From Puia dinghuensis (GTDB lineage Bacteria; Bacteroidota; Bacteroidia; Chitinophagales; Chitinophagaceae), in contig JAMFSL010000118.1 of the NCBI GenBank assembly GCA_026225275.1, positions 1 to 58,661 of the forward strand: 58,661 nucleotides of DNA, in the 5' to 3' direction. The position numbers and the translations under genes are program-made. The notes beneath the pieces are model-generated. The model had not been told where the DNA came from. It did no database searches and saw nothing but the letters and a program-made list of their open reading frames with translations. Shown piece after piece: positions 9,265 through 58,601 of the stretch; position 1 is the first letter of the stretch, and each line of letters starts with the position of its first letter.

Positions 9265-11829
9265 TCAGCGCGGCCGCCGGCTCCCCCCCAACAGGCCATC
9301 CATCCCGATCCGGATGCCCGTCTGGTTATAATGCCCGTTCAGCCAGGACCCGACCATGTCGACCCTAAGGATCTTGAAGATATTCTCCAGTCCGCCGAAC
9401 ACCTCCGCATAGTTATTGTTACGGTTGACATCGAACGCATTGGCGCCTCCCACCAGATTCCAGTTCAGCTTGCGGAAAATCGGGATTTTATTAGTCAGCA
9501 GGCCATTGAAATGATGCTCGAGATGCCCTTCGGCATAGAAACGGGCAATCGTACTGTTAGCATAATAGGGCAACAACTGAAAACTGCTGAGATACTCACT
9601 GGCAACAATCGTCTGGTTACCATTAAAATGCTGGTAATCAGGAAACAATACAGAGGCGGTATTGAGAAATCCCCCGATGGTGAAGCGAAAGCGCAATAGC
9701 CCTCTCAACTTGAAATTGACATCGTCCCATACGGAGAACCGCCATTTGTCGAAGTTCTCGTCGCTCCCCAGGATATGATCCCACCCTTTCTCGTAATAGA
9801 ATTCCATCGTCGGATATTTGGAGCCGACGGAGATCTTCCGCTCGGGAAACTCGATATACTGCTGCCCGGGCTGGTATTGCACGTCGATACTGGTCAATGC
9901 GGCCTTGTTATGGACCGGAAAGGGCGTATAAAATGGTAAGACCGGGTAATTAGGGGTGAAAGCCCTGTTCGAGCCCTTAATCAGCGAATAATTGGTGGTA
10001 TTCTGAATCGGCGTCCGGTCTTCATAAAGACCCGTCACGTTCAGCCGAAGCCCGTCGTCAAAGCGCGTCGTCGAGCTCAGCTGCGCAAAATAATTCTCGT
10101 AGATCTTCATGTAATTCTGCCTGTCGAGCAGCGTATACAGCGAATTGAGCCACTCGGAAATGGGGTTATCGGGATTGTACTGCGAGACCCTTTTACCGCC
10201 TGACAGACTCCAGGTCTGCCGCGAAGACGTGGCATCATCCCCATTCCAGGCAAAGCTGCGTCGCCTCCAGATCAGCTCGCCCCAGGGATTGAACCGGGTG
10301 TTGTGAAAGCCATATCGGAGATGAGGAGAGAAAGTCAGCGTCCCCTTCCCGTTCTTCAACGTCCGGCTGACAGAGCCGGTCAGTTTCATGTTGATCCCCT
10401 CTACGGTATTGTATTCCACCGTAGGCAACAACCCTTCCAGCGAATAATGCAGGGGCCGCGGCTGACGGTAATCGGACCGGTCGAAGCCGGTGATGAGCAC
10501 CTGCCACGGGGTGACAGGACCCTGACGATGCAGTAGGGAGTCGCGGTTATGCCGTGTACCCATCGAGTCCCGGTTATATTGATAGATGCTGTCCCGGATG
10601 GTATAATTGACCTTTTCGTCCGGCTCCAGCGGCAGCGGCCTGATAGAGTCCCAGTACTCCCTGGTCTTCTTGTTGCCGGCGGTATCAAAGCGCATCAGGA
10701 CATTGTTGAAGAACTTCTTGTGAAACTTCGGAGCAGGATCATAATCGTTGTAAACATCCAGGAAATTGCCAACGGCATCGAATCCGAAGATATTGAAGGT
10801 AAAATAGACGACCTGGTCCTTGACCTGCCAGATATGCTGACCTGCCGCTGATGCCGAAGAGCCTGTGTCGATGGGAGCATGGATCTGGCGGATCTCCAAC
10901 GTATCGAGGATCTGCAATTGCGATGTCTTGAACAGGAACAGGTCAAGGCTATGGATCCGCCAATCCCCTTCCACGATCTCGATAGTGCCGGAGAAGAGCG
11001 GTTCGAATTTTCGGCGGGGAATGACCTGGATCTTGTTGATCTCCCTGCCATCCTCGAAATAAGAACCGAGGAACTTATACCGGTAGTAATTCAGCGCGCC
11101 CTCGGCAATGGGGCTGATGAATCCCCGGGGATTGAGCCGGTCCGCCAGCGCATTGACATTGTTATTATAGAAATTGATGAATACCGGGAAAGAAAAGCCG
11201 AAGCCCCCCGAACCGCTTTCCCGGCCGGATAACACTTCCAGCTTGAGCTTGTCAGGCCGTTTGAAGGCTACCTTGGTCAGGGACTCCGACAAATAGATGA
11301 TGCCCTTGCCGGCCGAATCGACGCCCATATCGCGTCTATCTTTGGGCTCGATCTTTTGCCCCAGGATCCTGTCCGGCACCTTGCGGGTCCGGATCAGCGT
11401 CTTGACATACGCCTCACAGGTGAAGGAGTCGAGAGGTGTTTCATAAACCTTTCGCTTTTTAATAGCATGCCGGATAATGGCATAAGCCGGGTCTTCACCG
11501 CCGGGCCGGACCACTACTTCGGCCATGGATAGTTGCTGGGGCGAAAGCCGGAAGTCGGCGATTTGGGCTTCGGCGCCTACCGTGATGGTCTTCTCCTGGC
11601 GGGTATATCCTACGTATTGGCAAACCAGGGTGTAAGTGCCCGGTACCAGGTCCAGGGCATATCGGCCATCATTACCTGCCGTTACACCCCTGGTGGTTCC
11701 TTTGACGAGAATAGACGCATATGCCAGCGCGTTGCCCTTATCATCGGTAACCTTGCCGGTGACCTTGATACCCAGTACCCGGATGCACAGTAGCAGGATC
11801 AGTAGAGATAAGATAAGGGTGCGGTGCAT
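9265..11829 (-). CDS. DUF5686 outer-membrane protein with CarboxypepD_reg-like domain
   Basis: 854 residues. A signal peptide (about 1-19) is followed by a carboxypeptidase-regulatory-like domain (about 22-100: [16 protein letters not shown], then [12 protein letters not shown]) and a long beta-rich DUF5686 domain likely to form an outer-membrane barrel. The function of the family is unknown. It is the last gene of a leftward operon, 15 nt after the small membrane protein and behind the penicillin-acylase gene. A second family member lies at 53759-56311. The C-terminus ends in an unusual basic GGSRRPR. Confidence 0.88.
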
Positions 11830-14818: not shown

Positions 14819-14849
14819 AGCCGGTCTCAGGGTTGAGCCGGCTTTTTTT
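14819..14849 (+). terminator. Intrinsic terminator overlapping the 3' end of the BioF-like gene
   Basis: AGCCGG (14819-14824) plus CTCA (14826-14829) pair with TGAG plus CCGGCT (14834-14843) around a GGGT loop with one bulged T, followed by a run of seven T on the plus strand (14843-14849). On the minus strand only three T follow, so it is a weaker terminator for the BioF-like gene, whose stop codon (14827-14829) is inside the stem. No plus-strand gene lies upstream. Confidence 0.65.
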
Positions 14850-15960
14850 GTAAAAGCGCCGTTAACCTGTCGAGCTCATCGGGTGTGTTGAAGGAATGGA
14901 TGACGATACGGAGACGCTCGCTGCCCCTGGGCACCGTAGGATACAGGATAGGCCGGATATCCAGCCCGGCATGCTGCAGGCGTTCACCTAACGCGCGGAC
15001 TTCGGCGTTACCGGGCACGATGACCACCTGAATGGGAGTACTGCTTTGCAACCGTTCGTAACCGATAGCGGCCTGTTGAAAACGATCGATCAGTTGCTGC
15101 AGCCTCCGCCGCTCATCGTGCAGATGCGGGAACAATTCATACGCTCGGGCGATGGCTTTGACACTGACGGGTGGAATAGCAGTCGTGTAGATAAAAGAGC
15201 GGGAGAAATTGATGAGATAGTCCCGGAGGCGTCCACTGCCCAGTACAATGGCGCCATGACAACCTACCGCCTTGCCGAAAGTGTGAATACGGGCAAGACA
15301 TTCTCCGTGCCATCCCCCGGCCTGCGCCAGTCCCTCTCCTGCCGGGCCGATGACGCCAGTGGCATGTGCTTCATCGAGGATCAGCTGCGCTTTGTAGCGT
15401 TGGCATAAGGCAACTATTTCATCCAACGGCGCCAGATCTCCATCCATGGAGAACACGGACTCGGTCACGACAAATATATTCCCCTGATTGACTTTTTCTT
15501 GTGCAGCTGCCAGCCTCTTTTCCAGGTCGGCGACATCGTTATGGACGAAGGAGAAAGCCGTGCCGAACGACAACCGGATGCCGTCGCGGATGGAGGCATG
15601 GCTGAGGCTATCATAGAAGATAAGATCCCCGCGTTGAGGGATGCAGCTCAATACGCCCAGATTGGCATCATAGCCTGAATTGAAAAGGAGCCCGGCCTCT
15701 GCCTGGTGGAAGGTGGCAAGAGTCCGCTCTGTCTCTTCGATCAGGGAGTAATTGCCGGCCAGCAACCGCGATCCGGTGCTGCCATGTGCGAGAGAACCCT
15801 CCGCAGCGTCCGAGCCTTCCTCAAGCAGCCCGTTGGTGGCGATTCCCAGGTAGTCGTTGGAGCAGAAATCGGTCTTTCCTTCAGGCAGCCGCAGTCGCCT
15901 GAAAGCATCCTGCCGGCGGCGTTCATTTAATTTATGATCCAGGAAACGATCGTCCACCAT
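14827..15960 (-). CDS. 8-amino-7-oxononanoate synthase-like alpha-oxoamine synthase
   Basis: 377 residues, PLP-dependent fold type I. Family signatures: D-F-C-S-N-D-Y-L-G, H-G-S-T-G-S-R-L-L-A-G-N, cofactor-binding D-E-A-H-A-T-G-V-I-G-P, and the Schiff-base Lys in TFGKAVG. The family condenses an acyl thioester with an amino acid; BioF uses pimeloyl-ACP and alanine, its relatives make aminoketobutyrate or 3-ketosphinganine. Length and the F-C-S-N-D-Y-L-G motif favour BioF, but no other biotin gene is adjacent. The gene has its own promoter (TACGTTTG 13 nt upstream) and is divergent from miaE. Confidence 0.82.
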   Translation of the reverse strand: MVDDRFLDHKLNERRRQDAFRRLRLPEGKTDFCSNDYLGIATNGLLEEGSDAAEGSLAHGSTGSRLLAGNYSLIEETERTLATFHQAEAGLLFNSGYDANLGVLSCIPQRGDLIFYDSLSHASIRDGIRLSFGTAFSFVHNDVADLEKRLAAAQEKVNQGNIFVVTESVFSMDGDLAPLDEIVALCQRYKAQLILDEAHATGVIGPAGEGLAQAGGWHGECLARIHTFGKAVGCHGAIVLGSGRLRDYLINFSRSFIYTTAIPPVSVKAIARAYELFPHLHDERRRLQQLIDRFQQAAIGYERLQSSTPIQVVIVPGNAEVRALGERLQHAGLDIRPILYPTVPRGSERLRIVIHSFNTPDELDRLTALLQKKPAQP

Positions 15961-50663: not shown

Positions 50664-50689
50664 TTTGGGGCGGAAAACATGTAAATTTG
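50664..50689 (+). promoter_or_regulatory. Promoter of the TetR-family gene
   Basis: TAAATTTG (50682-50689) is a perfect -7 box; TTTG at 50664-50667 is only 14 bp upstream, shorter than usual. The start at 50713 follows 23 nt later. Confidence 0.5.
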
Positions 50690-50712
50690 AGACTATAACC
50701 GTTTATTCAGGT

Positions 50713-51324
50713 ATGACTGAAACGCTTCAAAGAGACGAGATTATAGTAAGGGATATCGTTGAAACCGCCAGGGTGCTGTTTAAGCAATCCGGGTTTAAAA
50801 AGACGACAATGGGCGATATTGCCCGCAGCCTCGGTAAGGCTAAGAGCTCATTGTATTATTACTATCCGAGTAAAGAAGATATTTTCGAGGCCGTTCTGCA
50901 TGCCGAAATGGACGAATTGCTGGATCAGATCCACCAATCCATCCTGCATGCCACATCTTCTAAAGAAAAGCTGACGATCTATTGCCGGTGCAGGCTTATC
51001 AAACTGAACGAATTGTGTAATCTCAGCGACGCTTTGAAAAGCGATATCGGCGAACTTCACGACCTGCATTGCATTATGACTGAACTGAAACATCAGTTCG
51101 ATACCACCCATGTCGGGCTGGTCCGCGAGATCCTGGAAGAGGGCGTCAGCAACGGAGAATTCAAAAAGATCAATAAGGATAATATAGAATTGGTCGCCTA
51201 CCTGATGGTCAGCAGCTTCAGAGGACTGGCAGTCCCTTTGATGGTCTCCCAAAGCCTCAGCCCAAGGCTGGACCTGCAGATCGACTCTATCGTGGATATC
51301 ATGGTTGAGGGGATCGGGCGCTAA
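50713..51324 (+). CDS. TetR/AcrR family transcriptional regulator
   Basis: 203 residues from MTETLQRDEI. The N-terminal helix-turn-helix is clear: A-R-V-L-F-K-Q-S-G-F-K-K-T-T-M-G-D-I-A-R-S-L-G followed by S-L-Y-Y-Y-Y-P-S-K-E-D-I. The ligand-binding part is generic, with several Cys in the middle (near 94, 96 and 105). It lies next to the inositol-lipid genes but converges on them, so control of that cluster is possible, not shown. It overlaps the PAP2 gene by 4 nt (CTAA). Confidence 0.9.
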   Translation: MTETLQRDEIIVRDIVETARVLFKQSGFKKTTMGDIARSLGKAKSSLYYYYPSKEDIFEAVLHAEMDELLDQIHQSILHATSSKEKLTIYCRCRLIKLNELCNLSDALKSDIGELHDLHCIMTELKHQFDTTHVGLVREILEEGVSNGEFKKINKDNIELVAYLMVSSFRGLAVPLMVSQSLSPRLDLQIDSIVDIMVEGIGR

Positions 51325-52247
51325 CGGCCGGTCATCGGCGCTTCCAGTGCCGCTATCCACTTTTTCACACCCTCCCTAAACCACCCCACATGGCCATATA
51401 AATAATTGAACAACGCTATCCCCGTCAACCCGCACGTGATCCCCGCCAGTACATCCAGCACATAGTGATGCCCGCTGTACACTGCCGCAAACCAGATACC
51501 GCACATGATCAGGGCAAACAAAGCGTTAACCCAACGGAACCGCAATTTTATCCCATAATAAAGGACGGTCAGCGGATACGAAGCGTGCAGCGAAGGCATG
51601 GCGGCAAATACGTTGGAGCTCTTGGCATAGAGACCGGAGAAGATGGACACATGGAAGAACTGATCGAAACGTCCCAATCCCGCGGTATTGCCTGGGGTAT
51701 GAGGATTGAATCCGAAGCCGTATTGCTGGACATACCAGGGCGGAGCGGCAGGATAGACGTAATAGATGACGAAGCCCAGCAGGTTGACGAGCAGGAAAGT
51801 CAGGGTATAACGGGCGAACCACTCCTTGTTCTTGAAAAAGAGATAGGCCGAAAAAGCCAGGGGCAGTGGTATCCAGCATAAATAGAACAATCCTGACAAA
51901 ATATCCAGAAGGGTCTGCTGATGGGCTAGCCAATACTCGTTGGGAGTGAGGACCAAGCCCCCCGGAACGGAGATCCCGAACAGGTGTTTCTCGGCCCGGT
52001 ACACACTTTCGATATGCACCGTATTATACCGGTAATTGGGAAATGCCTTCATGGAATCAAAAAGGATCCAGAAAACGATAAAAACTGAAAAACCCAGGAT
52101 AAAACGGCGGGTGGCGCCGGAAAGATAATAAAGGCTGTTGAACAGAACGACCAGGAACAACTGATCGGTTTTGAACCCAATGAGCCAGGCCGAAAGGATC
52201 AGGTAAAGCGCCGAGATCGCTGTAACTGTCAGTACCTTCCGCATCAT
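51321..52247 (-). CDS. PAP2-family, inositol phosphoceramide synthase-like membrane enzyme
   Basis: 308 residues with about six to eight helices. The PAP2/AUR1 catalytic motifs are AMPSLHASYP (216-225) and SGHHYVLD (258-265), giving the His-His-Asp set of lipid phosphotransferases. In this context the likely reaction is transfer of phosphoinositol from phosphatidylinositol to ceramide; simple lipid phosphatase activity is the alternative. Its ATG overlaps the stop of the CDP-alcohol transferase gene (ATGA), so the two are translationally coupled. It is the last gene of the leftward cluster. Confidence 0.83.
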   Translation of the reverse strand: MMRKVLTVTAISALYLILSAWLIGFKTDQLFLVVLFNSLYYLSGATRRFILGFSVFIVFWILFDSMKAFPNYRYNTVHIESVYRAEKHLFGISVPGGLVLTPNEYWLAHQQTLLDILSGLFYLCWIPLPLAFSAYLFFKNKEWFARYTLTFLLVNLLGFVIYYVYPAAPPWYVQQYGFGFNPHTPGNTAGLGRFDQFFHVSIFSGLYAKSSNVFAAMPSLHASYPLTVLYYGIKLRFRWVNALFALIMCGIWFAAVYSGHHYVLDVLAGITCGLTGIALFNYLYGHVGWFREGVKKWIAALEAPMTGR

Positions 52248-53659
52248 ACCTTGAACCGTTGGGTGAGCTCCTTCCCATTGCCGGTATCAACACCTTTCAA
52301 TTCCAGGTATTCGACATTCGGAGACCAGAAAGTGCCTCCGGGGTTGATCTTGACGTAGATCCGGTTGAGGATCGCCTGTCTGCCGGTGATGGTGGCAAAG
52401 ACATGAGGCCGGTTGTCGACGGGCGATTTCATCAGATAGAATAGTATCTTCTTGTAAGAAACAAAATGTAGTTCATATACATTGTTGCCAAGATCTTTTT
52501 CCTTCAGCCCATACGCAAAATGACGCTGAATGAAGGTCAATTCCTCCCGTTGCTTCTGCTCGGCATACCGTATCCAAAACACGTGCACGGGTTCGTCTTT
52601 ATCCAGTTGCCCATCCTTTTCGTTCAATTCGCAAATGATGGTATTGGTATTCGGTGTGCGTTGCAGATAAAATAGAGAATTGGCATTGCGTGGAGGAACT
52701 GGAAAAGTATCTACCGCTTCTTTGATAGTGGCTGACACATGACTGGCGGGGGCCGTTGACGACTGACTCGTTGACAACTGAGTCGTGGACAACTGAGTCG
52801 TGGACAACTGAGTCGTGGACGACTGAGCCCTGGGCGTAAACCCGGAAAGGGCGGCATGCAAACAGATCAGCAACAGCAATGCGCCAGGTAGGGACTTCCT
52901 GGGGTTCACCCCCGGCACAGTGACGCCTGAAGCCTTGTCAGCCTCCGAAGAGGTGGCGGCAGTTTCCCTGGCCTGCAGCGTTCGCCGGGCATCCCGAAGC
53001 CTGCCTATGGCAGTCCAGTTCGCGAGGAAAGCCATAACGGTGACAGGTATGGTGAAAATCGAAATCGTTTCGAAAACAGGAAAGGTACTATCGGGCCATG
53101 AGATCTTGAAATTACCACCCAACCAGCCCGAAGCAATACCGCAGGCCAGCGCGGATACCCCGACGATGATCACCCGTTCCGGCCGTTGCATCAACCCATC
53201 CTTGCATTCGATGCCCAACCCTTCCGCCCTTGCCCTGGTATAACTGACCATCATGCTGCCGATCAGCCCGATAAAGGCAAAAAGAGAACTTAAAAAATAG
53301 TGATGAGCCACCAGATAATAACAGATGCCCAGAAAGAGGATCAACTCGCTATAACGGTCAAGCACCGAATCATAAAGGGCCCCGAAAGGCGAACTCATAT
53401 TGCCTAACCGGGCCACCTGCCCGTCCAGCATATCAAAGAGCCCGGCAAAAAGGATCAGTGCTCCCGCCCATCCTACATAGCGAAGATCCCCCCTTTTGCC
53501 TTCTTCGGCGCCAGAGATGAAGATGATCGCTACACCGATATTCAACACCAGCCCGATCGTCGTGACCATATTTGGCGTAAGTCCGGCTTTGATCAGCAAT
53601 CTTACCAAAGGGTTGATGATCTTATAAATACCCAGCTGTAGTTTTTTCCGATTGGTCAT
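52244..53659 (-). CDS. CDP-alcohol phosphatidyltransferase (PI-phosphate synthase-like) fused to DUF4833
   Basis: 471 residues in two parts. Residues 1-225 are a six-helix CDP-alcohol phosphatidyltransferase with the full DxxDGxxARx8GxxxDxxxD motif (Asp76-Asp101); the likely acceptor is inositol-1-phosphate, giving phosphatidylinositol phosphate. Residues 255-280 look like a signal peptide (R-K-S-L-P-G-A-L-L-L-L-I-C-L, ending R-A-Q-S). A STTQL repeat linker follows (about 280-303), and then a DUF4833-like domain (about 310-471: H-V-F-W-I-R-Y, G-L-K-E-K-D-L-G-N-N-V-Y). The second part would lie outside the inner membrane. It has its own promoter (TATCTTTG 30 nt upstream). Confidence 0.85.
   Translation of the reverse strand: MTNRKKLQLGIYKIINPLVRLLIKAGLTPNMVTTIGLVLNIGVAIIFISGAEEGKRGDLRYVGWAGALILFAGLFDMLDGQVARLGNMSSPFGALYDSVLDRYSELILFLGICYYLVAHHYFLSSLFAFIGLIGSMMVSYTRARAEGLGIECKDGLMQRPERVIIVGVSALACGIASGWLGGNFKISWPDSTFPVFETISIFTIPVTVMAFLANWTAIGRLRDARRTLQARETAATSSEADKASGVTVPGVNPRKSLPGALLLLICLHAALSGFTPRAQSSTTQLSTTQLSTTQLSTSQSSTAPASHVSATIKEAVDTFPVPPRNANSLFYLQRTPNTNTIICELNEKDGQLDKDEPVHVFWIRYAEQKQREELTFIQRHFAYGLKEKDLGNNVYELHFVSYKKILFYLMKSPVDNRPHVFATITGRQAILNRIYVKINPGGTFWSPNVEYLELKGVDTGNGKELTQRFKV
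52756..52830. repeat. Five 15-bp tandem repeats encoding the STTQL linker
   Basis: Units at 52756, 52771, 52786, 52801 and 52816. The units at 52786 and 52801 are identical (TGGACAACTGAGTCG) and 52771 differs from them by one base. Read on the minus strand they encode Ser-Thr-Thr-Gln-Leu repeats between the membrane enzyme and the DUF4833 domain. Such arrays change length easily by slippage, and being in multiples of three bases they keep frame. Confidence 0.92.
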
Positions 53660-53689
53660 TGGTCAGTACTCTCCATGTTTGACAATCTC

Positions 53690-53697
53690 CAAAGATA
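53690..53697 (-). promoter_or_regulatory. -7 box of the CDP-alcohol transferase gene (TATCTTTG)
   Basis: Minus-strand TATCTTTG, a perfect TAnnTTTG, 30 nt upstream of the start at 53659. The 99-bp gap after the DUF5686 gene has no clear terminator. Confidence 0.6.
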
Positions 53698-53758
53698 CTA
53701 TGTTCATTCTGAATTTACAGGTTAAATAATAACTTATTCGGCCCGGCCACCACCCCCT

Positions 53759-56311
53759 TTAAAAGTCAAAATGGGCGCGGAACCGGATCCCGTATTTCGG
53801 AATGTCCGGATGATCCAGATACGTAAATCGCTTGATAAAGTCGATCCTTATCAGCTTGAATATATTGGCAATTGCAAAACCGCCTTCGACATAGGGCGTC
53901 CGGTTCAGGGCAAACGTCTCCAGTTGACCGTTGGTGAACGGGAATTTCACCTGATCGGGGTTCTTCGCCGGGTTGTTCTCATCTCTCAGCCCGCCAAATA
54001 GTACCTTCGCCTCGATGACCTCCCGCCATTTCAGCTTCTTCAGCAGCGGGACCTTATTGAAAAAGAAGCCGTTGAAATAATGATCGACATAGGCTGTAGC
54101 ATAGTGGTCGCTGACGAATTCAAGAAAATTCATCATGTTATAGGATTGCAGCTGATAAGCATAGGTTTGGTTGGCATGGTGAATATAGGCCAGGGCAAAA
54201 GGTACTTTGCCGATAAGATAGCCGAAATCAGCCGTTATATCGGTATAGCCCAACTGTGACTCGTAGACCCGTTTGAAAACATTGAAATCGAGATTGTGAT
54301 AATTGTATTGGCCGCCGAACAGTCCTTTGATACCTACGATATAACGAAAGTCAAAAATAGGATATTTGTTGAAAATAGGCGTCCGGTAGAGCTTCCCGAT
54401 ATAAAACTGTTCGTTCGGCGCCCAGCGGAGTTCGAGGGATCCTTCGGTGGTCGTTATAGCTTGCAGCGAATCGTCGCCGTTAATATCGGACTTCACATAG
54501 GCAATGGAGCCCGCCGGTGACTGCTGCCAGTATTTGAACCCGATATTATAGGAGAAATGGTTGCCCAGTTCCTTCACATACTGCAGCTTGAAAATGTTAT
54601 TGTAGAGCCATTTGTCGTTGGGACCGCGTTTGAAGGACAACAGGAAGTTATCTTCCTGCACGAACTGTAATTCCTCGCCGGGTATCTTGGTGTCTTTCTG
54701 ATAGGAGGCGCGGATGAAATGCTGCGGATAACTGTAAACGGATTTATTGTTCAGCGAATAAGTGCCGCTCAGGAAATATTTCCATTTCTGGTCCCCAAAA
54801 CCATAGGCAGCATACGCCTCGGAATAATACCGGGTACTCAGGTGGGTCGTGGTCCTGCCGCCGAAACGCAACCGGAATCCTTCCACAGGATTGAAACTGT
54901 AGAAGGCGCTCGCAGGACCTATTTCAAAAGGGCCGGCCTGCTTGTAACCTGCCAGTAACAGTGTACCCCAGTCCATCAGCCGCCTGTAGGATTTCATATG
55001 CTGCAGGCTGTCTATATTGGCATAGACCTTCGACTCCGAACGGGTCAGGGTATCATGCCGCGAATTGACCCAGAAGCTGTCGCTATGATTTTCTGCGCTG
55101 TCCGGCATCACCAGCGGCGAGCCCTTAAATACACTGTCCGGAATCGGTCGGCCGATAGTGAATTTCTTATAGGAAACGGTTCGCTCCCCAAACAGACCCA
55201 GTCCTTTCGGGCTGAGGCCAAAATCGGCCAATACATCGCTTTTGACGAGCAGGAATCTTCCATTAGGCATTTTTTCAAAATCCTGGTCGATCTTTAGTTC
55301 CCGCACCAGGTTCATGTTGATGCTCTTGCTCACGAGCAGGCGTAGCTTCTGAATGGCATAATTGCCGTCGAGGGTGATCCACAGCGTTCCCCGGAAAAGA
55401 AAATCGTTGGGGTTCCGTGGTCTGAAAGACAGCCGGACCAGTTTCTGACTATCCAGCATGACGGTATCCTCAATATAGTACATGTAGAAAGTAGGACCCG
55501 CATCGGCAATAGGACTCAGAAAAACATTGGTGAACACGGAAATATTATTGTCATAGACGTTGAAGTCCTGGTATAGCCGGTTCAGGAAACCAGAGATACC
55601 CTGCATATCGACAAACTCCCCGAAATCGACCTTCTTTTTGCCGAGAACGATGGTCTTCGTCTTTTCAGGATCTTTGCGGTAATAGACATCCGACAATGTC
55701 TCTTCGAGGTAAACCGGACTGAGCGTCCGCCCCTCCATTTTGCTGGTATCCCCGTTCTCTACAAGGAAATGATAGGGCTTGAGCAACTTCGTTTTTGCAG
55801 CCTTGGTATCGGTGGCTTTGTCGACGGAGGCCTGCAATTTCTCATATTTCTCATACGAGGCGTAGGTAAAGGCTTCCATCCTGTTTTTCGACTTATTCTC
55901 TATCACTTTCCGGATCAATTCTACCGCCGGATTATCCTTGTTACGGTACTTCTGTTTTTTATTCACGACCGTCACATTGCGTAGCTCCCGGAACTGAGGG
56001 GTAAGACCGATCACTACTTCCTGCCGCGGCACCGAGTCCAGGTGCAGGGTCAATGTGTTATACCCTACACTGGAAATGACAAGATCCACGGCATGCTGGC
56101 CGGTAGGGATGCGAAATTTTCCCTCTGCGTTGGTGCGTGCTCCTCCGTGTAGCCCTTTTACCGCAATACTGGCGTTGGATATCGACACCCGTGTAGCGGA
56201 GTCCCTTACCCATCCATGTAATACTATGTCCTGCCCCCTGCCGGCGTAACCGGCCACCATCATCCAGAGTAATAACACTCCGGTTTTCGTTCTACTGCCT
56301 GTCTGTTGCAT
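53759..56311 (-). CDS. DUF5686 outer-membrane protein with CarboxypepD_reg-like domain (inositol-lipid locus)
   Basis: 850 residues from Met 56311 (MQQTGSRTKTG, signal peptide ending A-G-R-G-Q); a Met at 56332 would overlap gtrA by 14 nt. The regulatory-like beta-sandwich (about 28-105: V-R-D-S-A-T-R-V-S-I-S-N-A-S-I) precedes a long DUF5686 barrel ending in R-F-R-A-H-F-D-F, with the terminal Phe typical of outer-membrane barrels. Overall plan equals that of the protein at 9265-11829. It lies between gtrA (7-nt gap) and the CDP-alcohol transferase, so a role in moving or anchoring the inositol lipid is conceivable. Function unknown. Confidence 0.87.
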   Translation of the reverse strand: MQQTGSRTKTGVLLLWMMVAGYAGRGQDIVLHGWVRDSATRVSISNASIAVKGLHGGARTNAEGKFRIPTGQHAVDLVISSVGYNTLTLHLDSVPRQEVVIGLTPQFRELRNVTVVNKKQKYRNKDNPAVELIRKVIENKSKNRMEAFTYASYEKYEKLQASVDKATDTKAAKTKLLKPYHFLVENGDTSKMEGRTLSPVYLEETLSDVYYRKDPEKTKTIVLGKKKVDFGEFVDMQGISGFLNRLYQDFNVYDNNISVFTNVFLSPIADAGPTFYMYYIEDTVMLDSQKLVRLSFRPRNPNDFLFRGTLWITLDGNYAIQKLRLLVSKSINMNLVRELKIDQDFEKMPNGRFLLVKSDVLADFGLSPKGLGLFGERTVSYKKFTIGRPIPDSVFKGSPLVMPDSAENHSDSFWVNSRHDTLTRSESKVYANIDSLQHMKSYRRLMDWGTLLLAGYKQAGPFEIGPASAFYSFNPVEGFRLRFGGRTTTHLSTRYYSEAYAAYGFGDQKWKYFLSGTYSLNNKSVYSYPQHFIRASYQKDTKIPGEELQFVQEDNFLLSFKRGPNDKWLYNNIFKLQYVKELGNHFSYNIGFKYWQQSPAGSIAYVKSDINGDDSLQAITTTEGSLELRWAPNEQFYIGKLYRTPIFNKYPIFDFRYIVGIKGLFGGQYNYHNLDFNVFKRVYESQLGYTDITADFGYLIGKVPFALAYIHHANQTYAYQLQSYNMMNFLEFVSDHYATAYVDHYFNGFFFNKVPLLKKLKWREVIEAKVLFGGLRDENNPAKNPDQVKFPFTNGQLETFALNRTPYVEGGFAIANIFKLIRIDFIKRFTYLDHPDIPKYGIRFRAHFDF

Positions 56312-56318
56312 CTTAGGT

Positions 56319-56711
56319 TCATTTAAAAACAAATCTCTTCTGTAGTGGATAATTATAGAAAACGGCGACTAATGTAGCGGTGATGACCTTGGCCCACATG
56401 GGCTGAATACCGGTGTACCGGGTCAGCAGGTAAAGCCCGGACGCATTGAGCACCAGGTTGCCGATCCAGACCGGCACATAGCGGTTGATCTGGGCCATCC
56501 ATTTTTTTTCCTGGGCATTGAACACCCAGTTACGACCAAGCATGAAATAAGTAAAGCCACCGCAGAGAGTACCGGTGACACCATAGAAGGTCACCCTGGC
56601 GCTGGCGGCTACAGGAGGAACACCGGCCCATTTGAGCAACACGGAGAAGACCAGAAAGTCGACCCCGGTCGCAATCAGGGAAGCCAGTTGGGCTTTGGTA
56701 AAAGTAATCAT
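56319..56711 (-). CDS. GtrA-family membrane protein
   Basis: 130 residues with four helices, the GtrA/DPMS hallmark; opening F-T-K-A-Q-L-A-S-L-I-A-T-G-V-D-F and G-G-F-T-Y-F-M-L-G-R-N-W-V-F are typical, as is the C-terminal Y-P-L-Q-K-R-F-V-F. GtrA proteins are linked to the flipping of polyprenyl-linked sugars or to glycosyltransferases. It lies 7 nt after the PgpA-like gene, inside the inositol-lipid cluster, where it may help glycosylate or flip the lipid. Confidence 0.88.
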   Translation of the reverse strand: MITFTKAQLASLIATGVDFLVFSVLLKWAGVPPVAASARVTFYGVTGTLCGGFTYFMLGRNWVFNAQEKKWMAQINRYVPVWIGNLVLNASGLYLLTRYTGIQPMWAKVITATLVAVFYNYPLQKRFVFK

Positions 56712-56718
56712 GGTGTTT

Positions 56719-57192
56719 TTACAAAGGCTTAACGAGGACGATGATTTGCAGGATCACATTGGCGTACACCCCTGCCAGCACATCATCCATCATGACGCCC
56801 CAACCGCCATCCAGCAATTCCATTTTCCGGATGTACAACGGTTTGGCAATATCGAAAAATCTAAATAACACAAGCCCAATCAATACGTAAGGCCACTTCA
56901 CTGGAACGAACAACAGCGTTATACACATGCCCGCCACCTCATCGATCACGACCCGGTAGCTGTCTTCGCCCCACCCCGCTTCCACTTTCCCTGCACTCCA
57001 GATACCAACCACAAGAAAAACTGCTGTCACCACGATGGGTGCCCAAAAATGACCGTTTCCACCCTTCCAGGAAAAATACCAGGCTATACAACAGGCCAGG
57101 GCAGCCACGGTGCCCCCACCCTTTCGTATATACCCGAGTCCCAGACAGGTGGAAACCAGGCGATGGAAACCCAATAAACCAATTGGCCTCAT
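56719..57192 (-). CDS. PgpA-like phosphatase, probably phosphatidylinositol-phosphate phosphatase
   Basis: 157 residues of the phosphatidylglycerophosphatase A family: V-I-D-E-V-A-G-M (Asp84, Glu85), R-F-F-D-I-A-K-P (Asp114) and M-M-D-D-V-L-A-G (Asp136, Asp137) supply the acidic site. E. coli PgpA dephosphorylates PG-phosphate. Sitting directly after inositol-phosphate synthase and before a CDP-alcohol transferase, it most likely removes phosphate from phosphatidylinositol phosphate. Its ATG overlaps the preceding stop by one base (TGATG). Confidence 0.85.
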   Translation of the reverse strand: MRPIGLLGFHRLVSTCLGLGYIRKGGGTVAALACCIAWYFSWKGGNGHFWAPIVVTAVFLVVGIWSAGKVEAGWGEDSYRVVIDEVAGMCITLLFVPVKWPYVLIGLVLFRFFDIAKPLYIRKMELLDGGWGVMMDDVLAGVYANVILQIIVLVKPL

Positions 57193-58511
57193 CAGGCGGT
57201 TATTTCTTCCTCTGCTGCAAAGGCAAGCCCTTCCGGATTCACGAGCTCTTCACCCATCAACTTGCGGAGTGCGTTCTGCAAAACGGTCAGTTGTTTAAAT
57301 ATATCGTGCTCGGGCCTGAAACCAGGTGCGTGCTGAGGAGATTTAAAGTAAAACGACAACCAGTCCTGAATACCGCTCAAACCGGCTCTCTTGGCCAGAT
57401 CGCCGAAAAGGGCAAGGTCGAGCACCAGCGGAGCAGCGAGGATGGAATCCCGGCAGAGGAAATTGATCTTGATCTGCATGGAATAGCCCAGCCAGCCGAA
57501 AATATCGATGTTATCCCAGCTCTCCTTATTATCGCCGTGAGGAGGATAATAATTGATGCGGATCTTATGATACAACTCTCCATAGAGCTCGGGGCTCAGG
57601 TCAGGACGAAGGATATCTTCCAGCACACTGAGCTTGGAAACCTCCTTGGTCCGGAAATTTTCCGGGTCATCCAGCACATAGCCGTCCCGATTGCCTAATA
57701 TATTGGTCGAGAACCAACCTTTCACACCCAGCGCACGGGCCTGGAGGCCGGGGGCAAGGATAGTCTTCATCAGGGTCTGCCCGGTTTTGAAGTCCTTGCC
57801 GCCGACAGGTGTTTGGGTTTGTTTGGCCAAGTCGGTCAGCGCTGGAATATCCACTGTAAGGTTTGGAGCACCATTCAGGAAGGGAATACCCATCTTGAGG
57901 GCCGCATACGCATAGATCATGCTCGGAGCGATACGCGGATCGTTATCCCGCAGGCCTTTTTCAAAGGCACTCAGGCTTTCGTGCACATCACCTATCTCGA
58001 TATATTTTTCCGTAGAGCCACACCATACGATGACCAGGCGGTCGCAGTCGCGGGTCTCCTGGAATTGCGAAATGTCCTCCATCAAAGCCTCAGCCAAAGC
58101 GTATTTCGTCGCAGCCTCTTTCACATGGGTACCATCCAGATTCTTGATATAGCTTTTGTCAAAAACCGCTTTCATGGGTTTCAAAGCTTCCAGCTGCGGG
58201 CGCAATGTTTCCAGCGTGTGCTGTTCCAATACCTTCGCCCTGCTTGCCGCGGTATATACATTATCCTCATACACATCCCAGCCGCCGAAAACGATGTCTT
58301 CCAGATTGGCCAGGGGGACGAAGTCCTTAATTTTTGGATAATTATTTCCCTTCTTCCGGTTCAGATGGATATTACCCATCTGGGTGAGGGATCCTATCGG
58401 TTGAGCAATGCCTTTCTTTACAGCTTCTACACCCGCAATGAGCGTAGTCGCCACCGCGCCAAGTCCGGGGATCAATATGCCCAGTCTGCCAGTCGCTTCT
58501 TTTACTTCCAT
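57192..58511 (-). CDS. Myo-inositol-1-phosphate synthase
   Basis: 439 residues from MEVKEATGRL. Converts glucose-6-phosphate to 1L-myo-inositol-1-phosphate with NAD. Rossmann start I-P-G-L-G-A-V-A-T-T (14-23), W-C-G-S-T-E, N-G-A-P-N-L-T-V-D-I-P-A-L, the catalytic G-G-K-D-F-K-T-G-Q-T, and D-D-P-E-N-F-R-T-K-E-V-S-K are all in order. It is the first gene of the inositol-lipid cluster and is preceded by a well-formed promoter. The longer frame to 58589 crosses that promoter and is rejected. Confidence 0.94.
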   Translation of the reverse strand: MEVKEATGRLGILIPGLGAVATTLIAGVEAVKKGIAQPIGSLTQMGNIHLNRKKGNNYPKIKDFVPLANLEDIVFGGWDVYEDNVYTAASRAKVLEQHTLETLRPQLEALKPMKAVFDKSYIKNLDGTHVKEAATKYALAEALMEDISQFQETRDCDRLVIVWCGSTEKYIEIGDVHESLSAFEKGLRDNDPRIAPSMIYAYAALKMGIPFLNGAPNLTVDIPALTDLAKQTQTPVGGKDFKTGQTLMKTILAPGLQARALGVKGWFSTNILGNRDGYVLDDPENFRTKEVSKLSVLEDILRPDLSPELYGELYHKIRINYYPPHGDNKESWDNIDIFGWLGYSMQIKINFLCRDSILAAPLVLDLALFGDLAKRAGLSGIQDWLSFYFKSPQHAPGFRPEHDIFKQLTVLQNALRKLMGEELVNPEGLAFAAEEEITA

Positions 58512-58568
58512 GATCAATTTTTTTTGGTTGAATAATATACCGGGCGTCCTTTCTCCCCCGTGACCCAA

Positions 58569-58601
58569 CAAAATTATTGAATTATTCATTATTCGAACAA
58601 A
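58569..58601 (-). promoter_or_regulatory. Promoter of the inositol-lipid operon
   Basis: On the minus strand TTTG (58598-58601) and TAATTTTG (58569-58576, a perfect TAnnTTTG) are exactly 21 bp apart, the best promoter in the window. It lies 57 nt upstream of the synthase start. Further out is a perfect palindrome AAATTGCAATTT (58646-58657), which could be an operator or belong to the next gene. Confidence 0.7.

Follow-up and report, generated by a model that had tools for sequence, protein, structure and literature searches.

The stretch of DNA analysed here, called the window, is the whole of contig JAMFSL010000118.1 (58,661 nucleotides; C212 in our numbering) of a Puia dinghuensis genome of 6.59 Mb in 365 contigs with a completeness rating of 99.9% (GCA_026225275.1), and it carries at one end a cluster of genes for inositol lipids. 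The whole cluster spans positions 58589-51321 of the minus strand, reading from the contig end inward, with the contig end 72 bases upstream of its first gene, which encodes myo-inositol-phosphate synthase (MIPS). A first-pass annotation had placed four genes in one direction in 51321..58601, for an inositol-phosphate synthase, a PgpA-like phosphatase, a CDP-alcohol phosphatidyltransferase and a PAP2/AUR1-like enzyme, and all four are confirmed on the minus strand, at the positions and in the order given. The lower limit of that span is indeed the end of the PAP2 gene; the upper limit lies 12 bases past the MIPS start codon (58589). The inventory was right for the four enzymes and missed a GtrA gene, a gene for a DUF5686 protein and a DUF4833 domain, which forms the C-terminal third of the transferase open reading frame (ORF). 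The start/stop overlaps reported for two gene pairs are both real: the synthase and phosphatase genes have one base in common (TGATG), and the transferase and PAP2 genes have four (ATGA). Seven bases separate the GtrA stop from the ATG of the DUF5686 gene, which starts at this ATG (56311) or at a TTG at 56332 and ends at 53759. It is well supported that the locus is a phosphatidylinositol (PI) cluster, of a type already known but unusual in its setting, with the ceramide half of the pathway not found in the genome and the synthase fused to DUF4833. Its features are as follows.

57192..58589, minus strand: MIPS, 465 amino acids; PF07994 339.6 bits, PF01658 112.5 bits, both over cut-off.
56719..57192, minus strand: PgpA-family phosphatase, 157 amino acids; PF04608 131.7 bits; predicted phosphatidylinositol-phosphate-diacylglycerol (PIP-DAG) phosphatase.
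56319..56711, minus strand: GtrA family membrane protein, 130 amino acids; PF04138 60.8 bits; in the position of BT_1524.
53759..56311, minus strand: DUF5686 protein with a CarboxypepD_reg-like N-terminus; PF18939 191 bits; probably located in the outer membrane.
52244..53659, minus strand: ORF of 471 amino acids fusing a PIP synthase (PIPS) to DUF4833; CDP-alcohol phosphatidyltransferase match 63.5 bits.
52955..53659, minus strand: PIP-DAG synthase domain of the fusion (residues 1-235); NF052561 PIPSynBT1523 384.2 bits.
52244..52702, minus strand: DUF4833 domain of the fusion (from residue 320); PF16117 146.7 bits, residues 330-468.
51321..52247, minus strand: AUR1-like PAP2 protein, 308 amino acids; PAP2_3 85.5 bits; H221, H260, D265.

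The gene order matches BT_1526-BT_1522 of Bacteroides thetaiotaomicron, a likeness already drawn in the first-pass annotation, and the pathway encoded there has been shown by knock-outs, as set out in the relevant portions of PMC9246714 and PMC8791184. Shared with that system are the order MIPS, PIPPh (PgpA), GtrA, PIPS and PI-dihydroceramide synthase, the PIPS motif and an AUR1-like last enzyme. The window differs in the fusion of PIPS to DUF4833, in a DUF5686 gene before PIPS, and in belonging to a genome in which no serine palmitoyltransferase (SPT) was found. The part of the earlier proposal that leads from glucose-6-phosphate to PI stands: synthesis by the predicted BT_1526/1523/1525 route is well supported, because the putative PIP synthase passes the NCBIfam equivalog model for BT_1523 (NF052561; cut-off 350 bits, match over fusion residues 4-233) and carries, at residues 76-101, the motif D-x2-DG-x2-AR...G-x3-D-x3-D that a passage of PMC9246714 gives for BT_1523. 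MIPS is the sole PF01658 match in the genome, and its closest solved relative is 7nwr, 'Inositol-3-phosphate synthase' (568 bits; second best 225 bits). The PgpA protein is the only PgpA match found in the genome. No PgsA-type transferase was found there, and since the search for further CDP-alcohol transferases yielded a single PssA-like protein (106.1 bits, marginally below the cut-off of 107), a role as phosphatidylglycerophosphate (PGP) phosphatase would have no visible substrate supply. Family and genome context favour a predicted role as PIP-DAG phosphatase.

The significant solved relatives of the PAP2 protein are two AUR1 sequences, matched at 5e-17 (9vj3, over residues 35-282) and 7e-17. 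Thus neither this protein nor the transferase, which passes the BT_1523 cut-off, groups with PG-phosphate or general phosphatase families, the outcome against which the first-pass annotation had cautioned. The context differs from that of the AUR1 inositol phosphorylceramide synthases (PDB 9vj3, 9ivc) in that the enzyme starting ceramide synthesis was not found in the genome of the window.

The further claim, that the pathway continues to inositol phosphoceramide, was not supported, and the suggested search for SPT elsewhere in the genome was negative. The alpha-oxoamine synthase subfamily model, scored on all 13 candidates, revealed no SPT in the genome; the SPT model itself gave no match at E 1e-150 there, with 4 of the 13 candidates scored. 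The alpha-oxoamine synthase search returned three real matches and one at 19 bits. The first is glycine C-acetyltransferase (685 bits, cut-off 493) and the second a BioF-like protein at window positions 14827-15960, which stays under the bioF equivalog cut-off (358.7 versus 426 bits). The third and nearest candidate, on contig C240, scores 610 bits to 7u7h (Alistipes finegoldii SulA), and 577 bits to 'cysteate-C-fatty acyltransferase' versus 239 bits to the SPT 3a2b. In its passages on the enzyme, PMC9304779 describes SulA as specific for cysteate and Lys281 as the residue separating it from SPT. The C240 protein has Lys at this position (residue 281), in common with 22/22 SulA-type rows (C240 included), versus Ala in 8/8 SPT rows; its best solved relatives and this diagnostic lysine rule it out as an SPT. 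Two further queries from relatives, a ceramide-synthase-like GNAT-type acyltransferase (best match 96 bits, 30% identity) and an epimerase-type reductase (48 bits), likewise found no close homologue in the genome. Their roles as ceramide synthase and reductase were assigned from position beside SPT, from family and from earlier work on Caulobacter.

In many relatives the SPT gene lies immediately before MIPS, which is where the window stops, and the contig break was therefore examined. The window overlaps contig C346 by 127 bases, its end being identical to the start of C346, and the first gene on C346 there is racemase-like (named by eye); the same gene lies upstream of MIPS in relatives without a linked SPT, among them L139, L142 and L144. 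An SPT hidden at the contig end is ruled out, since the overlap continues into the racemase-like gene and no SPT is there.

We compared the cluster across two sets: named loci, the best 80 of 438 by DUF4833 similarity, and a class sample of 395 genomes. Whole genomes were searched for SPT for 43 of the 80 named loci, chosen by hand (fused, separate and isolate genomes), with all candidates scored; in the class sample at most four candidates were scored per genome, so that negatives there are weaker than those from the named genomes. SulA was searched for in the 27 cluster genomes of the class sample, and the PF04116 fatty acid hydroxylase in the retrieved stretches. PIPS is present in 72/80 named loci and fused to DUF4833 in 41 of those 72, a recurrence that rules out a frameshift artefact as the source of the fusion.

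These clusters are of two kinds. Those of Mucilaginibacter, Segetibacter, Ferruginibacter, Terrimonas and others resemble the window's in MIPS, PgpA, GtrA (missing in several), DUF5686, PIPS, DUF4833 and PAP2, and differ from it in that SPT, the GNAT-type acyltransferase and the epimerase-type reductase lie upstream and a PF04116 hydroxylase gene separates DUF4833 from PAP2 (for example, L172:10546-11196). Clusters of the second kind, the window's included, are without linked SPT, acyltransferase, reductase or hydroxylase, and PAP2 abuts the fusion. There are intermediates: L148 and L214 are fused and yet have SPT and hydroxylase, and in the Chitinophaga loci L198 and L199 SPT lies beside the fusion, with no hydroxylase seen in the stretches. 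Within the retrieved stretches, the hydroxylase stands between DUF4833 and PAP2 in 13/20 SPT-bearing versus 0/23 SPT-less named genomes, which suggests that ceramide hydroxylation is part of the SPT-linked clusters.

SPT exceeded its cut-off in 20 of the 43 named genomes, with bimodal scores (at least 651 or at most 365 bits). By cluster type, 23 genomes are fused and SPT-less, 10 fused with SPT, 10 separate with SPT and none separate and SPT-less (Fisher p 1e-4, kinship ignored). In five fused genomes with unlinked SPT, this gene makes up a three-gene cassette together with acyltransferase and reductase genes (L221-L225). The class sample has PIPS at 336 bits or more in 27/395 genomes (25 above and two below the cut-off of 350), with at most 41 bits in the others; among the 27, SPT exceeds its cut-off in 14, is borderline in one (G022, 505 bits) and was not found in 12. 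The fusion fails as a strict mark of SPT-less genomes, and is no general mark of SPT loss, because nine class-sample clusters are both separate and SPT-less. SulA-type enzymes (at least 567 bits) occur in 22/27 cluster genomes, among them 11/12 SPT-less and 10/14 SPT-bearing ones, and in G195 the class-sample searches found neither SPT nor SulA. By record titles, the SPT-less isolates include Puia dinghuensis, Flavitalea sp. BT771, four Sediminibacterium species and Hymenobacter terrenus; as several SPT-less members are isolates, assembly gaps are unlikely to be the general cause of missing SPT. Puia dinghuensis and Sediminibacterium goheungense, both scored SPT-less, carry the fusion, and Segetibacter koreensis is SPT-bearing. 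A literature search on Sediminibacterium lipids found nothing, and one on inositol lipids of Chitinophagaceae gave nothing relevant among the matches listed.

The AUR1-like gene is kept where SPT was not found. PAP2 lies beside the cluster in 33/35 genomes scored SPT-less (23/23 named and 10/12 of the class sample, window counted; the misses are L068 and L069), a set from which the duplicate genome L172 was removed and in which other overlap of the two samples is possible. The three residues H, H and D (H221, H260 and D265 in the window), which we take to be the AUR1/PAP2 catalytic residues, are kept in 65/65 aligned PAP2 proteins and in 33/33 of those from genomes scored SPT-less. Ratios of nonsynonymous to synonymous substitution rates (dN/dS) for PAP2 were sought in six pairs. 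Three SPT-less pairs gave a finite dS, with ratios of 0.055, 0.060 and 0.074 (dS 1.57, 1.46 and 0.64, only the last well below saturation); dS was saturated for the pairs window-L136, window-L142 and L191-L212. Such low values are as would be expected for a gene under selection. Inositol phosphoceramide is thus not supported as the product, because ceramide genes were not found in the genome and SPT-less genomes keep the AUR1-like gene. An acceptor other than ceramide appears the likeliest reading for the PAP2 enzyme.

Two further domains go with the cluster. DUF4833 adjoins or is fused to PIPS in 22/27 cluster genomes of the class sample (5 fused); the clusters without it are L048, L050, L055, L058 and L059. 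Since a hydrophobic segment at residues 257-275 of the fusion, seen in the hydropathy profile, precedes the domain, we infer a periplasmic place for DUF4833. An N-terminal hydrophobic stretch is present in 35/36 of the separate DUF4833 proteins (15-residue window), and one between the domains in 32/39 fused proteins (19-residue window; 2 of the 41 are without the anchor motif), which is consistent with a DUF4833 that is exported and, in the fusion, tethered. The DUF4833 profile had a single match among solved structures, at E 1.6. DUF5686 homologues score above 1200 bits in 18/27 class-sample clusters (window counted) and above 500 bits in 69/72 PIPS-bearing named loci. According to PMC9246714, BT_1527, 'carboxypeptidase-regulatory-like', neighbours both cluster types, and it may be the counterpart of the DUF5686 protein. 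Our literature search found no paper naming DUF4833 or DUF5686.

DUF4833 does not accompany inositol lipid genes exclusively, as the 43 DUF4833 genomes of the class sample show. The domain is at PIPS in 22 of them and near another CDP-alcohol transferase in 4 (G242, G065, G101, G175); in 17, and for several second copies, no cluster-profile match lies beside it except weak DUF5686-type ones. The window's genome has such a second DUF4833 gene (G000:C13:41884-42294; L084:9771-10316), with no cluster-profile match in the surrounding 19 kb. In L070 the domain lies inside a cluster of the alternative type, with NTP transferase, CDP-alcohol transferase, lysylphosphatidylglycerol (LPG)-synthase-like, HAD hydrolase and PfkB genes and a DUF5686 homologue (1320 bits). 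The Bacteroides vulgatus-type alternative cluster consists, according to PMC9246714, of NTP transferase, CDP-alcohol transferase and HAD hydrolase. It is like the window's cluster in that one genome of the sample, L070, holds DUF4833 and a DUF5686 homologue in such a setting, and unlike it in its other proposed chemistry and in the L070 CDP-alcohol transferase, which is not of BT_1523 type (26.7 bits). Three further loci have DUF4833 after another CDP-alcohol transferase and a GtrA gene. A set of SDR, PhyH-like, CDP-alcohol transferase, GtrA and DUF4833 genes recurs in L072, L073 and L087 (SDR and PhyH scanned on L095, the transferase on L073, GtrA on L072) and is possibly another phospholipid headgroup pathway.

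The explanation that we favour, and judge moderately probable on sequence grounds, is a Bacteroides-type PI operon whose host has no recognisable pathway for making ceramide de novo; the end products would be PI and a further inositol lipid, not inositol phosphoceramide. MIPS would make inositol-3-phosphate, PIP synthase would join it to CDP-diacylglycerol and the PgpA protein would then remove the phosphate, steps for which the gene sequences speak. GtrA may help PI across the inner membrane, and DUF4833, tethered to PIP synthase by the extra hydrophobic segment, may handle PI together with DUF5686 in the periplasm and at the outer membrane. The AUR1-like PAP2 enzyme may take phosphoinositol from PI and pass it to a hydroxylated acceptor lipid of SPT-independent origin. 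For GtrA, a passage of PMC8791184 reports that the total membranes of a BT1524 mutant of B. thetaiotaomicron contained a lower amount of inositol phosphoceramide and a higher amount of PI.

Several observations weigh against this explanation. The cluster and SPT co-occur in the class sample (14/27 cluster genomes versus 23/368 others have SPT; Fisher p 3e-9, kinship ignored), a pattern to be expected of a last enzyme that normally depends on ceramide. An altered acceptor is not visible in the PAP2 sequences, because no column separates SPT-bearing from SPT-less genomes at 90% (74/308 columns agree at that level) and the PAP2 tree, a quick one with long branches flagged, calls for 10 or more changes in the presence of SPT. 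An independent-pairs test of SPT versus the hydroxylase gene on that tree gave p 1, from 3 pairs on starred branches. The PAP2 protein of the window shares 77% identity with that of L140, whose genome carries SPT, and PAP2 dN/dS exceeds that of MIPS in 3/3 usable pairs and that of PIPS in 2/3. For a BT_1524 mutant, PMC9246714 reports no change by thin-layer chromatography, and a transport role for DUF4833 and DUF5686 is something that we only infer. We read the PAP2 results taken together as an SPT-independent use of the enzyme, possibly in SPT-bearing members of the clade too.

That inositol phosphoceramide is made after all, with ceramide from an unrecognised enzyme (for example, a cysteate acyltransferase using serine) or from uptake, we regard as unlikely, if the strongest of the alternatives. 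An AUR1-like PAP2 with intact catalytic residues, inseparable from the PAP2 of SPT-bearing genomes, would fit it well, as would the co-occurrence of cluster and SPT and the many relatives that have SPT, acyltransferase and reductase right beside the cluster. It has to contend with an SPT not found in the window's genome, with the SulA lysine of the nearest candidate and the cysteate specificity reported for SulA in PMC9304779, and with the match of 96 bits to the acyltransferase, where the same query gives 140-164 bits on divergent SPT-linked cassettes. The reductase match of 48 bits compares with 188-264 bits in those cassettes, but with another query. A more distant ceramide synthase in the window's genome is possible.

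The PAP2 superfamily includes phosphatases, and the enzyme might make no transfer to a second lipid, instead acting as a PI or lipid-phosphate hydrolase that regulates the PI level or supplies diacylglycerol. Its score against the PI-dihydroceramide synthase equivalog NF052609 (329.9 bits) is under the cut-off of 480, which speaks for this reading. That cut-off does not discriminate, however, because the PAP2 of the SPT-linked cluster L049 also falls below it (350.0 bits; the PAP2 of L059 passes with 570.8), and with AUR1 as the closest solved relatives we find a hydrolase improbable. A gene set serving phosphatidylglycerol, with PgpA as PGP phosphatase and the CDP-alcohol transferase as PGP synthase, has on its side the PgpA family name, under which BT_1525 was annotated according to a passage of PMC9246714, and can be set aside as very improbable, given a transferase that passes the PIP-synthase model and has only 31 bits against pgsA (cut-off 109), and a MIPS gene that overlaps the phosphatase gene.

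Beyond the cluster, the window has a DUF5686 paralogue at 9265-11829 (419 bits against the DUF5686 profile built here), and the following gene lies next to PAP2.

50665..51324, plus strand: TetR-family regulator, convergent with the cluster, 219 amino acids from a TTG start; PF00440 56.1 bits.

This gene is a possible regulator of the inositol-lipid cluster. In L136, L138-L142, L144 and L166, a Puia-like group, PAP2 is likewise directly followed by a TetR homologue on the opposite strand, and TetR-like genes (by eye) lie upstream of MIPS in the Sediminibacterium loci L151 and L160. Homologues of the window's TetR gene occur in 12/41 fused versus 1/31 separate PIPS loci. A Chitinophagaceae-type genome, as first supposed, agrees with the closest named relative by DUF4833, which is Puia dinghuensis (77% identity; records of the window's own genome were possibly excluded).

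The routes to bacterial inositol lipids were elucidated in gut Bacteroides, in which inositol ceramide is the product of the last enzyme. A widespread environmental variant with the AUR1-like enzyme but without the entry into ceramide would point to a new inositol lipid or to a wider acceptor range of AUR1-type enzymes. We offer, tentatively, the broader proposal that many Bacteroidota use an AUR1-family enzyme without sphingolipids, on a non-sphingoid acceptor and with a new inositol lipid as product, and that DUF4833 and DUF5686 form a path from periplasm to outer membrane that is coupled to synthesis in the fusion. Tying DUF4833 and DUF5686 to inositol lipids would give both domains a first testable role.

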